DNA from: Frigoribacterium faeni
GTDB lineage: Bacteria; Actinomycetota; Actinomycetes; Actinomycetales; Microbacteriaceae
Assembly (NCBI RefSeq): GCF_007988805.1
Contig: NZ_BJUV01000023.1
Coordinates: forward strand, 1-43,075
Direction of reading: 5' to 3'
DNA length: 43,075 nt
Below are positions 4,402 through 11,512 of this stretch, piece by piece. Under the pieces are notes generated by a model. That model was not told the DNA's origin. It worked only from the letters and a program-made list of their open reading frames with translations, and ran no database searches. Position numbers and translations under genes: made by a program. Positions within the stretch are counted from its first letter, which is position 1, and the number at the start of each line of letters is the position of its first letter.

Positions 4402-4477
4402 GAGGAGGCGCGGCGCGGGTCAGGAGGCGCTGCGCCGGTCAGGAGGCGCGGCGCCGTTCAGGAGGCGCTGCCCACCG
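4402..4477. repeat. Four tandem 19-bp copies of the dispersed GC-rich repeat
   Basis: The word GGAGGCG begins at 4404, 4423, 4442 and 4461, an exact 19-bp period. Each unit reads roughly TCAGGAGGCGCKGCGCCGG. The last unit contains the stop codon and final residues of the acyl-CoA synthetase (TCA 4458-4460 is its TGA), so the array looks like a repeated duplication of that gene's end. On the minus strand the second and third units also begin with TGA. Confidence 0.9.
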
Positions 4478-6044
4478 CCTCCTGGGCGCTGAACCGCTCG
4501 ACGAGGGCCCGTTTGAGGATCTTGCCGCTGGGTCCGAGCGGGAGCGCCTCGACGACGTGCACGACGCGGGGGAACTTGTAGGCGGCGATCTCGTCGGAGA
4601 CGAAGCGGACGAGCTCGTCGGGCTCGACCGTCGCGCCCTCGCGGAGGACGACGGCCGCCTCGATCTCCTGGCCGTGCAGCTCGTGGGGCACGCCGAAGAC
4701 GGCGGCCATGGTCACGTCGGGGTGCTGGGCGAGGACCTCCTCGACCTGGCGCGGGTACACGTTGTAGCCGTTGCGGATGATCATGTCCTTGGTGCGGTCG
4801 ACGATCGTGAGGTAGCCGTCGTCGTCCTTCGTGCCGAGGTCGCCGGTGCGGAACCAGCCGTCGACGATCGCCTCGGCGGTGTCCTCGGGCCGGTTCAGGT
4901 AGCCGTTCATCAGGTTGTGTCCGCGGATGACGAGCTCGCCGATCTCGCCGTGCGGGAGCAGGGCGATCGAGTCGGTCACGGCCGGGTCGGCGATCTCGAC
5001 GTCGACGCCCCAGATCGGGGTGCCGATGGTTCCCGGACGAGGGGTGCGCCCGACGTGGTTGAAGGTGGCGACGGGCGAGGTCTCGGTGAGGCCGTATCCC
5101 TCGTGCAGGGGCGCGCCGTAGACCTGCTCGAAGCGCTGGAGCACCGCCAGGGGCAGGGAGGCGCCGCCCGAGATCGCGTAGCGGAGGCGCGGGCGGGCCT
5201 CCGAGCGGGTGGCGGCGTCGAGCAGCGCCATGTACATCGTCGGCACGCCCATGAAGACGGCGCAACCGTGCTCGACCATGGCGGCGAGCGCGGCGTCGCC
5301 GTCGAACCGCGGGAGCATGACGATGGTGGCGCCGGCGCGGAACCCGGTGTTCATGGTGCAGGTCTGCCCGAAGGTGTGGAACAGCGGCAGGGCGCCGAGC
5401 AGGACGTCGCCGCGGGTGATGTCGAAGGTGCTCATCAGGTTGGTGTTGACCTGCTCGAGCAGCGCGAAGTGCGAGCCCTCGGCGCCCTTCGGCTGGCCGG
5501 TGGTGCCGCTCGTGTAGAGGATGGTGGCGGTGTCGAACGGGTCGCGGGGCACGTAGGTGTCGAGCGGCTCGGCGGTCTCGGCGAGCGCCTCCAGCCGGTC
5601 GTGTCCGGTGCCGTGCGGGTCGACGCTGGAGTCGGGGGCGAGCACGGTGACCACGTCGACGCCGGCCAGCGCGGCGCCGGCGGCGCCCTCGCCGAGCAGG
5701 GGTGCGGCGCAGACGAGGATGGTCGCGCCGCTGTCGCGGAGGACGTACTCGATCTCGTGGCGCTTGAGCAGGGCGTGGACGGGCACCGCGACGGCGCCGA
5801 GGGCGAGGGTGGCGTAGTAGACGCGGGGGAAGTCAGCGACGTTGGGCACGAGCATGGCGACGCGGTCGCCCTCTCCGACGCCCTTCTCGCGCAGGGCTCC
5901 GGCGTAGGCGAGGGTCTGGCTCCAGAGCTCGGCGTAGGAGGTGCGCTGGGCTCCCACGATGACGGCGACGTCGTCGGGGTAGCGGGCCGCCGATTCGGCG
6001 AGGATGGCGGCGACCGACGCGGTCGCGCGAGAGGGTGTGCTCAT
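4458..6044 (-). CDS. Acyl-CoA synthetase (AMP-forming, fatty-acid ligase type)
   Basis: Activates a carboxylic acid, probably a medium- or long-chain fatty acid, through an acyl-adenylate to its CoA thioester. The 528 residues carry the AMP-binding P-loop motif (ILYTSGTTGQPKG, about residues 174-186), GYGLTETSP (A5), GWFRTGDLG (A7), DRTKDMIIRNGYNVYPRQVEE (A8 hinge) and PSGKILKR (A10 catalytic lysine) close to the C-terminus. All core motifs are intact and length is normal. The ATG at 6044 has upstream GGAGACGGAG and a TATGAT -10. Substrate cannot be read from sequence; aromatic or propionate ligases are alternatives. Confidence 0.9.
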   Translation of the reverse strand: MSTPSRATASVAAILAESAARYPDDVAVIVGAQRTSYAELWSQTLAYAGALREKGVGEGDRVAMLVPNVADFPRVYYATLALGAVAVPVHALLKRHEIEYVLRDSGATILVCAAPLLGEGAAGAALAGVDVVTVLAPDSSVDPHGTGHDRLEALAETAEPLDTYVPRDPFDTATILYTSGTTGQPKGAEGSHFALLEQVNTNLMSTFDITRGDVLLGALPLFHTFGQTCTMNTGFRAGATIVMLPRFDGDAALAAMVEHGCAVFMGVPTMYMALLDAATRSEARPRLRYAISGGASLPLAVLQRFEQVYGAPLHEGYGLTETSPVATFNHVGRTPRPGTIGTPIWGVDVEIADPAVTDSIALLPHGEIGELVIRGHNLMNGYLNRPEDTAEAIVDGWFRTGDLGTKDDDGYLTIVDRTKDMIIRNGYNVYPRQVEEVLAQHPDVTMAAVFGVPHELHGQEIEAAVVLREGATVEPDELVRFVSDEIAAYKFPRVVHVVEALPLGPSGKILKRALVERFSAQEAVGSAS

Positions 6045-6075
6045 GTCCTGGTGTTCTCCGTCTCCGTTGACGACT

Positions 6076-6087
6076 AATCCTTCAGGA
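6076..6087 (-). promoter_or_regulatory. Small inverted repeat in the acyl-CoA synthetase leader
   Basis: ATCCT-GA-AGGAT on the minus strand lies just downstream of the TATGAT -10 box of the acyl-CoA synthetase gene, where a repressor such as a TetR-type protein could bind. It is short and could be chance. Confidence 0.25.
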
Positions 6088-6163
6088 TCATACGCCGCGC
6101 CGCCACACCCTCACTCCGGGGTCACGCCGCTCCGCCGCCGGCTCCCGCCCGGTCGTCGGGCTC

Positions 6164-6673
6164 TCAGTCGAAGCTGCCGCCGCCGTCGGCGTCGCGCGGC
6201 CAGTGACTCCTCCCCTGGCCCCGTCCGCTGAGGTTCAGCCGTCCGGCTCCGGGGCGGCCGCGCCTGACCGGGGCCGGGCTCGCCGGGGGTTCGGGCTCGC
6301 GGGCGTAGCCGCTGCGGACTCGGGCCCGATGGACCGGCTGGACCCAGCCGAGCTCCCGGACCGGCTGGCCGTCGCGCCAGGTGGTGCGCCATTCGTCGAC
6401 GGCCTGGTCGACGAGGTCGAGCCAGTCGTCGGCGAGGAAGTGGTAGCGGGTGGGGCCGTCCTCGAGCACCCTGGTGAAGCCCGACTCCTTGAGGACGCCG
6501 AGGTGGTGGGAGACGCTGGACCAGCCCTTGCCCATGTTGTCGTAGACCATCGTGGCGATGTCTCCCGACGAGGCCGCGCCCTGGCACAGCAACTCGACGA
6601 TGTAGTGGCGGACGGGGTCGCTCAGTACGACGAACGGGCTCACGCGGCGCGACCGGCCGCCGCGCGGGCTCAT
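6164..6673 (-). CDS. ArsR-family winged-helix transcriptional regulator
   Basis: Residues about 10-90 form a winged helix-turn-helix: LSDPVRHYIVELLCQGAASSGDIA, then the recognition helix GWSSVSHHLGVLKESGF and the wing VLEDGPTRYHFLADDW. The classical metal site ELCVCDL is absent, so this is not a typical metal sensor. Total length of 169 exceeds the usual 100-120. The last 70 residues are low-complexity (Pro, Arg, Gly, Ser) and end DADGGGSFD. The gene is divergent from hrpA, and its upstream region is the 7-copy palindrome array whose nearest core begins 70 bases before its start. Autoregulation through those sites is a guess. Confidence 0.85.
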   Translation of the reverse strand: MSPRGGRSRRVSPFVVLSDPVRHYIVELLCQGAASSGDIATMVYDNMGKGWSSVSHHLGVLKESGFTRVLEDGPTRYHFLADDWLDLVDQAVDEWRTTWRDGQPVRELGWVQPVHRARVRSGYAREPEPPASPAPVRRGRPGAGRLNLSGRGQGRSHWPRDADGGGSFD

Positions 6674-6742
6674 CGTCGGCGCATTCGGTCGGGGCCTCGG
6701 GTGGCCGGTGCGGCGTGCGTTCGAGGTCGCGTGCTCGCTCTC

Positions 6743-6911
6743 GAGCTATTACGCATCCATGCGCAGCAGTCCGACCAGGCACAGCGAGAGCCCTCCGGAC
6801 GCGTCCGCGCTGTCGAGCTATTACGCATCCATGCGCAGCCCACCGACCACACACGGCGACAGCCCTCCGAACCCGTCCGCGCTGTCGAGCTATTACGCAT
6901 CCATGCGCAGC
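6743..6911 (+). repeat. Palindromic repeat array A: three copies, 72-bp period
   Basis: Cores beginning GAGCTATTACGCATC at 6743, 6815 and 6887 are identical over at least 23 bases. Each is followed by CATGCGCAGC, an imperfect second half of a palindrome. The period is exactly 72 bp, and the first two full units are about 87 percent identical by eye, so spacers are repeated too, unlike a CRISPR. The cores are AT-richer than their surroundings. The region has open frames in several phases, as expected in GC-rich DNA; I do not call a gene here. Confidence 0.93.
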
Positions 6912-7013
6912 AGTCGCTCTCCCGCCGTGCATGACGGCTCATTGCCGGACTCTCATCCCGGCCCCTCCCCGCTCTCATGAACTCGACGTCACCGAATCCG
7001 CGCCCGAGCCCGC

Positions 7014-7320
7014 TACGCATCGATGCGTAACAGCTCCACAGCAGACGCACGTCCTGTCCACGCACGACAGCACGGAACCCGCCACCCCGCCGCTCCCCGA
7101 ACCCACTACGCATCGATGCGTAACAGCTCGAAAGCAGACGCACGCCTCGATCCCGAAGACGACGACCGAGCCCACCGACTCCAGCCCGCCACTCCCCGAG
7201 CCCGCTCCGCATCGATGCGTAGTAGCTCGCCCGTAGACGCACGCCCTGTCCACGCGCGACAGCACGGAACCCGCCACCCCGCCGCTCCCCGAACCCGCTA
7301 CGCATCGATGCGTAATAGCT
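7014..7320 (-). repeat. Palindromic repeat array B: four copies in opposite orientation, 93/99/93-bp spacing
   Basis: The palindrome TACGCATCGATGCGTA lies at 7014-7029, 7107-7122 and 7299-7314. A one-base variant is at 7206-7221. Each is followed by AACAGCTC or a close variant (AATAGCTC, AGTAGCTC), so the minus strand reads GAGCTATTACGCATC as in array A. Spacers after copies 1 and 3 are nearly identical over about 70 bases, so there is also a 192-bp higher-order repeat. Read in one minus-strand frame the core gives ELLRIDA followed by a stop in three of four copies, which argues against a protein repeat in that frame. Confidence 0.93.
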
Positions 7321-7419
7321 CGCGAGCGAACACGAGTCCGGACGCTGGATCCGCCCGCGGGTAGACCGTGACTCTCGCGCCGACCTCGATGCGCAGACAA
7401 CCCCTGACGCGCGAGCGGA

Positions 7420-7498
7420 CGATGACGCGACAGCAGACGACGGCCCGACAGCGCGACAGCGCGACGGCCCGACAGCGCGACAGCTCGACAGCCTCACG
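7420..7498. repeat. Short tandem repeats of GCGACAGC type
   Basis: The stretch 7420-7498 alternates GCGACAGC and CGACGGCCC, for example CCCGACAGCGCGACAGCG twice within 60 bases. It lies between palindrome array B and the hrpA promoter. No coding function is evident. Together with arrays A and B it fills the 969-bp gap between the ArsR and hrpA start codons. Confidence 0.7.
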
Positions 7499-7627
7499 CG
7501 GGACGGTGAGCGCGAGAGGACCTGCATGACGAGAGAATGCCCCGCGACGCACCCCGCACCTCCTCGGCTCGGTTGCGCCTGGGGAGAACTCGGCGGCGGA
7601 GGCGGCGGGGGACGACTCGTCAGCGCT

Positions 7628-7633
7628 TAAGCT
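7628..7633 (+). promoter_or_regulatory. -10 box of hrpA
   Basis: TAAGCT lies nine bases before ATG 7643. The gap is too short for a normal leader with a ribosome site, so a leaderless or near-leaderless mRNA is likely. Confidence 0.45.
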
Positions 7634-7642
7634 GGAACGCCC

Positions 7643-11512
<3,870 letters not shown>

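Follow-up and report, generated by a model that had tools for sequence, protein, structure and literature searches.

The gap between the divergent arsR-type and hrpA genes of Frigoribacterium faeni carries several copies of a palindromic element, and the question raised by this locus is whether these copies form a regulatory device of the gap itself or are local members of something more widespread. The features concerned are listed below with their coordinates in the window, by which we mean the whole stretch of 43,075 nucleotides that was analysed:

4458..6044, minus strand: gene presumed to be acyl-CoA ligase-like; in the 10 genus members that lack arsR, it is the first gene called upstream of hrpA
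6164..6673, minus strand: ArsR-type winged-helix gene, 169 aa (Pfam HTH_5, 25.1 bits, cut-off 22)
6743..6772, plus strand: left array copy 1, intact half GAGCTATTACGCATC
6815..6844, plus strand: left array copy 2, 72-bp unit
6887..6916, plus strand: left array copy 3, 72-bp unit
7007..7036, minus strand: right array copy 1, inner 16 bp TACGCATCGATGCGTA perfect
7100..7129, minus strand: right array copy 2, inner 16 bp perfect
7199..7228, minus strand: right array copy 3
7292..7321, minus strand: right array copy 4, inner 16 bp perfect
7643..11512, plus strand: hrpA-type helicase gene (label of the initial annotation), present in 16 of 16 genus members

The half-site GAGCTATTACGCATC occurs with 0 mismatches at 6743, 6815 and 6887 (plus strand) and at 7307 (minus strand), and with 1 mismatch at 7022, 7115 and 7214 (minus strand). 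These seven are its only matches at ≤3 mismatches in the 43-kb window, and none of 100 dinucleotide shuffles (mean, 0.40 matches) reached this number. The pattern search and the shuffles confirm the seven copies in two opposed arrays described in the initial annotation, and its spacings of 72/72 bp for the three forward copies and 93/99/93 bp for the four reversed ones are correct. The dyad is likewise real, the inner 16-bp dyad TACGCATCGATGCGTA being perfect in three of the seven copies, whereas the perfect 30-bp palindrome that had been proposed is a construct found in none of them; the supposed mirror symmetry of the region is only loose, with three copies against four and different periods. 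A simple gene caller found no gene across the arrays. We expect hrpA to be little affected by the copies of the window; arsR may be affected if a putative reader binds the palindrome.

The same element is found far beyond this gap. A ~24-bp palindrome, CTATTACGCATNNATGCGTAATAG, recurs about 36 times in the genome of F. faeni (G000), spread over 12 places (33 found by pattern, one at L069, and two weak ones in FliK). At ≤2 mismatches the half-site gave 31 match rows in this genome against 1 in a reversed control, and a longer pattern gave 35 rows per strand against 2 and 1 in the controls. The arrays of the window are local copies of a dispersed element and not special to the arsR-hrpA gap. The neighbours at the other places include genes for CrcB, AIR synthase-like, HutD, NlpC/P60, DUF1349, TetR, PAP2, ROK, ABC/NMT1 and heme oxygenase proteins, and no common function was seen among the neighbour genes. 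According to the initial annotation, a regulatory role would fall if the arrays occurred at random positions in many genomes without link to ArsR or hrpA; as the element is present at 11 other places whose neighbours have no common function, the idea of a local device fails by this test. The search for the half-site in related genomes that had been suggested was run and revealed the element to be dispersed across Frigoribacterium. The start of contig 3 (L011, 1-180) and the end of contig 31 (L017, 3040-3144) of G000 carry palindromes with similar flanks and are probably one array broken by assembly.

A scan of 84,980 named genomes with a 19-letter pattern returned more than one stretch only in Frigoribacterium sp. 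Leaf263; five further matches, each a lone one in an unrelated taxon, were put down to chance. Spelling A, as the form in F. faeni is termed here, was found outside the genus in 2 of 133 genomes with one one-mismatch hit each. Spellings B and C, defined below, were searched outside the genus in the FliK regions of 11 other genera only (G058 partly covered), and these regions held no A or B/C copy apart from one weak match with 5 mismatches. An origin from plasmids was rejected, the gap being without match in 72,556 plasmid records, and so was a viral origin: the 17-letter A pattern matched once in each of 6 viral stretches listed, which was taken as chance, and the exact C palindrome had no match in viral sequences. 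Searches of the open-licence literature turned up no account of an element of this kind in Frigoribacterium.

Within the genus, the spelling of the element varies from branch to branch. Spelling A is present at ≤1 mismatch in G000 and in 2 of 15 other members (G002 and G003). Palindromes of the same size in other branches are spelled approximately CTGATCCGGTACGTACCGGATCAG (B) and CTGATCCGTCACGTGACGGATCAG (C); both were seen first upstream of arsR in other species and then at many places by pattern search, their genome-wide counts being taken among the matches listed. In short form the spellings are CTATTACGCAT.. (A), CTGATCCGGTAC.. (B) and CTGATCCGTCAC.. (C), B and C differing in two bases per half (GT vs TC), and the stretches examined contain 49 sites of A, 41 of B and 62 of C. 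FliK of G006 contains a fourth palindrome, CTGATCCGCTCCGGAGTGGATCAG, with related copies upstream of arsR; it is probably a fourth spelling, D (CTGATCCRCTC..), represented by one genome and looked for only in this FliK gene and in 16 stretches upstream of hrpA. The boundary between B and C is leaky: the six copies upstream of arsR in G010 consist of one B half and one C half, and further single hybrid copies occur in G005 and G014. In a purM tree, G000, G002 and G003 form one clade (0.996) that is joined to the B genomes (1.000), and G012 is split from the other C genomes; in an hrpA tree calculated from a shorter stretch, C forms a clade and A does not. These data are best read as one element with three and probably four lineage dialects, some of them at common positions.

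Places common to lineages are FliK (A, B, C, D), the gap upstream of arsR (A, B/C hybrid, C, D), the ABC-NMT1 gap (A in G000 and G003, C in G012), an MFS gene (B and C) and, by one flank only, L162/L175 (C and B). G005 shares two places with G007 and two with G012, one of the latter by one flank only. A few places are thus older than the lineages. Within lineage B, G005 has 14 clusters, 8 of which have an orthologue among the 17 clusters of G014 (three pairs were obtained with eight G014 stretches and eight pairs with eight more), so that the copies are largely inherited in this lineage; within C, 3 of 11 G007 clusters match the nine G012 stretches fetched, in addition to arsR. Neither recent movement nor an empty site with target duplication was seen in the comparisons made, and in the one comparison of an occupied with an empty site, the purM gap, the sequences were too different to show an insert such as a MITE, with its terminal inverted repeats and target duplication, would leave. 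The purM-glyoxalase gap of other genus members (L099-L111) contains other long inverted repeats, distinct from the A-D families.

The symmetry of the element is independent of the way in which it was found. When one half served as probe (≤1 mismatch; 48 A, 36 B and 59 C places), the other half was complementary at 76% (A), 81% (B) and 80% (C) of pairs, against 27-30% after shuffling of that half, so the dyad is not an artefact of the search. Within arrays, similarity of the core exceeded the mean of the two flanks in all 17 cases, a comparison biased by the choice of cores by consensus; in arrays L014 and L015, the core was less similar than one of its flanks. G005 and G014 were compared at five orthologous intergenic pairs, in which 17, 20, 23, 21 and 22 of 24 palindrome positions are identical, compared with 89, 52, 92, 78 and 42% of the rest of the gap, the palindrome thus being better kept than the gap in four pairs and clearly worse in one. 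In that one, the first, the flanks have changed more slowly than the palindrome, whose two arms carry matching substitutions; in the fourth, one half has gone over from one of the forms B and C to the other. Matched changes on both arms characterise the orthologous pair L168/L179 of these two genomes. Such changes fit a dyad whose symmetry persists as its letters drift. Of the original description, a dyad-symmetric element that is kept above its spacers within arrays and possibly is a protein site stands; a device special to this gap does not.

Placement was analysed in 39 of 40 stretches from G005, G007, G012 and G014 (L156, a likely chance match, was omitted) together with 19 A stretches. 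The 65 clusters comprise 18 in convergent, 21 in tandem and 8 in divergent gaps (the window gap and seven others); a further 6 lie in FliK, 3 at an edge and 9 in called genes other than fliK, including a likely chance match (L013 6347). Control gaps of at least 50 bp without copies in the same stretches were convergent in 43, tandem in 141 and divergent in 63 cases. Convergent gaps are thus enriched (18 of 47 intergenic clusters vs 43 of 247 control gaps; Fisher p 0.003, with a home-made gene caller and related genomes), and a similar enrichment of REPs is described in the text of a published survey (PMC3733652).

Copies inside genes occur in the linker of FliK, where they are present in 12 of 15 genomes and in all of the spellings A, B, C and D (G008 had no FlgE match, and the comparison covers 15 genomes). 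G000 has two weak copies there (8 and 6 mismatches), and the spellings looked for are all absent from FliK of G004, G013 and G015. De novo clustering of palindromes in FliK missed the A copies, which were caught by the pattern search. The FliK domain PF02120 scores 42 to 50 bits in the proteins of G003 and G007. All 42 copies lie in the FliK frame and in one register, five rows in overlapping second frames having been left out; this common register could be chance, two frames being open. The B and C stretches have 13 matches in called genes, and 11 of these are in the register of the FliK copies, the two exceptions being L146, at the very end of a called gene, and L156, a weak match in an ATPase-like gene. 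The hosts include an MFS transporter, a ROK protein, a beta-lactamase-fold protein and an extension of glyceraldehyde-phosphate dehydrogenase. In the MFS gene, the copies of G007 (C) and G005 (B) occupy the same aligned codons (DPSRDGS vs DPVRTGS), and G014 (B) has two copies, the first of which begins at the same PDP. An ArsR-type regulator gene adjoins the palindrome-carrying MFS gene of G007 (L148, 4730-5344).

Several described repeat systems share features with this element. Like it, the CGTC REPs and the neisserial dRS3/NIME repeats are ~20-bp palindromes without a dedicated transposase, some of them inside genes, and dRS3 has conserved arms, a variable centre and arrays with elements of 30-160 bp, as described in the texts of two papers (PMC3733652, PMC3898611). 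In the former, a survey of 2013, the lack of a dedicated transposase for CGTC REPs is stated as an open problem, the dRS3 class is given a CCA tail and an 8-9 bp stem whose first two pairs are A-T, and the word Actinobacteria is absent from the main text (PMC3733652). The present element differs in its actinobacterial host, in its lineage spellings at common places and in its number, about 36 in the F. faeni genome against almost 700. Within ~5 bases of the stem ends, the CGTC tag of CGTC REPs (CGTC/TGTC/CCTC) was found at 1 of 49 A, 1 of 41 B and 4 of 62 C sites. GTAG REPs, BIMEs and REPtrons with RAYT resemble the element as short dispersed palindromes with a bias for gene ends, but their GTAG tag occurs at 1 of 49 A sites and at none of the 41 B and 62 C sites, and the RAYT-type Y1 transposase (Y1_Tnp) was detected in 0 of 16 genus genomes at E≤0.001, compared with 5 of 14 control genomes. 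Without a Y1 transposase and with hardly any GTAG or CGTC tag, the element falls outside both described REP superfamilies. It is a dispersed, mostly intergenic palindrome of 20-40 bp, as loose definitions of REPs have it, whereas the high copy number reported for REPs, usually >100, exceeds that of the F. faeni genome. Rickettsia palindromic elements share in-frame copies inside unrelated protein genes (PMC10969869); here the unit has 24 bp instead of ~150 bp and is mostly intergenic. Multi-site operators of the ArsR family share palindromes upstream of an arsR-type gene, but depend on their regulator and lie at promoters, whereas the element is dispersed and occurs also in genomes without that arsR.

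The reading that we prefer, with a probability of about 0.5, is that the arrays represent, at this locus, a dispersed, REP-like actinobacterial palindrome family whose dyad is read by a putative sequence-specific factor with a drifting taste. The copies would sit in tolerant DNA, such as gene ends, long gaps and protein linkers, and arrays would grow by tandem duplication of palindrome plus spacer. The factor may read the palindrome as a dyad, either as the site of a dimeric protein or as a DNA hairpin; as its taste drifts, the copies of each lineage would drift with it, including those that stay in place. The original spread is assumed to have occurred by mobility. The change of spelling at common places suggests that something reads the sequence in trans, and REP-like behaviour accounts for the dispersal, the arrays, the bias for convergent gaps and the in-frame copies in linkers. 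Counting against this reading are the ~36 copies, which are few for REPs, the absence of a detected transposase, the large share of inherited copies within B, the closeness of B and C with their hybrids, and the one copy that changes faster than its flanks. A more far-reaching version is tentative, and we would not expect it to hold: with each shift in the specificity of the reader, the palindromes would be rewritten in place and in concert, giving heritable dialects even in coding sequence, with the hybrids as intermediates. The reader may in that case be the ArsR-type protein, in an arrangement like a REPtron without the transposase.

The ArsR-type protein is also at the centre of the first alternative, in which the palindromes are its operators, autoregulatory and at sites throughout the genome, and ArsR and sites co-evolve. 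The arrays lie 5' of the arsR-type gene, which is accessory in the genus: a match at E≤1e-20 was found in 6 of 16 members, and all six have palindromes upstream of it (seven in G000, six in G010, three each in G006 and G011, two in G007, one weak copy in G012), whereas in all 10 members without a match the gap before hrpA is free of A, B/C and D copies. The ligase-hrpA gap of these ten measures ~83 to 275 bp in nine genomes and ~870 bp in G001. The arsR-array segment thus behaves as an accessory block in which both parts come and go together. G006, G007, G011 and G012 have a further gene between arsR and hrpA, and in G007, G011 and G012 more arrays lie downstream of arsR. ArsR is 45-49% identical to that of G000, against 89-98% for the N-terminal part of HrpA in the same five genomes, and in the motif GWS[SA]VSxHL, which we take to be the recognition-helix region, the residue at x differs between lineages: H in G000, E in G010, R in G006 and Q in all three C genomes. 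Position beside the arrays, fast evolution and this lineage-specific residue make ArsR one candidate reader. The evidence on the link to ArsR suggested in the initial annotation is mixed: the arsR-bearing members fit it, but several of the ten others, namely G005, G014, G009 and G001, have many copies in other places, several of them perfect in G005. The arsR match of G012 (contig 2, 182400-182897, L054) has an internal TAA in frame, and copies nearby persist. Among the matches listed, the highest count in A and in B belongs to an arsR-bearing genome, a count biased by patterns taken from such genomes, but in lineage C, G001 without arsR (32 rows) exceeds the arsR-bearing G011 (27 rows). The preference for convergent gaps, the copies inside genes and the B/C hybrid rather than plain B form of the G010 array also argue against operators. 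We regard this alternative as doubtful, and operators of ArsR only as unlikely.

Equally doubtful is the idea that the copies are fixed sites of another conserved chromosome-wide protein, for instance a nucleoid or segregation factor, that were selected place by place and never were mobile DNA. Inheritance within B (8 of 14), a dyad kept through paired changes and changed spellings at places common to lineages would all be in line with such sites, whereas the small number of common places (two each for G005 with G007 and G012), the orthologous copy that outran its flanks, identical 20-mers at many places between unrelated genes and the lack of a candidate protein are not. Transcribed hairpins at gene ends, with a terminator-like or mRNA-stabilising role, would explain the enrichment in convergent gaps, and three hand-picked copies from other loci do fold strongly as RNA (z -4.8 to -7.6). 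The seven copies of the window, on the other hand, hardly surpass shuffled sequences in folding (z -0.06 to -2.06), a scan limited to one promoter type called neither a promoter- nor a terminator-like site at 6600-7700, and eight clusters including the window gap are divergent; we consider this explanation very improbable. The structured RNA array put forward earlier is unlikely as well, given the weak folding and the lack of an Rfam match at E up to 5 in window positions 6000-8000.

On the preferred reading, that of a REP-like family followed by a drifting reader, the element would bear on short palindromic repeats without a known transposase, which are an open problem. Dialects at orthologous, even codon-exact, positions turn the question of what sets the sequence of a repeat into a testable comparison, for which the arsR-linked arrays name one candidate reader. 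They also carry a warning, since such arrays are easily misread as local operators.

Other repeats were observed beside the element. Different near-palindromes adjoin copies of it in G002 (L071, 3874-4161; AGTGGTCAGAAGATGCCC...) and in the L172/L211 gap (GAGTGGGCAGAAGATGCTGCTC...), and a tandem 8-bp unit (CGACAGCG-like) is located upstream of hrpA at 7438-7493 of the window.
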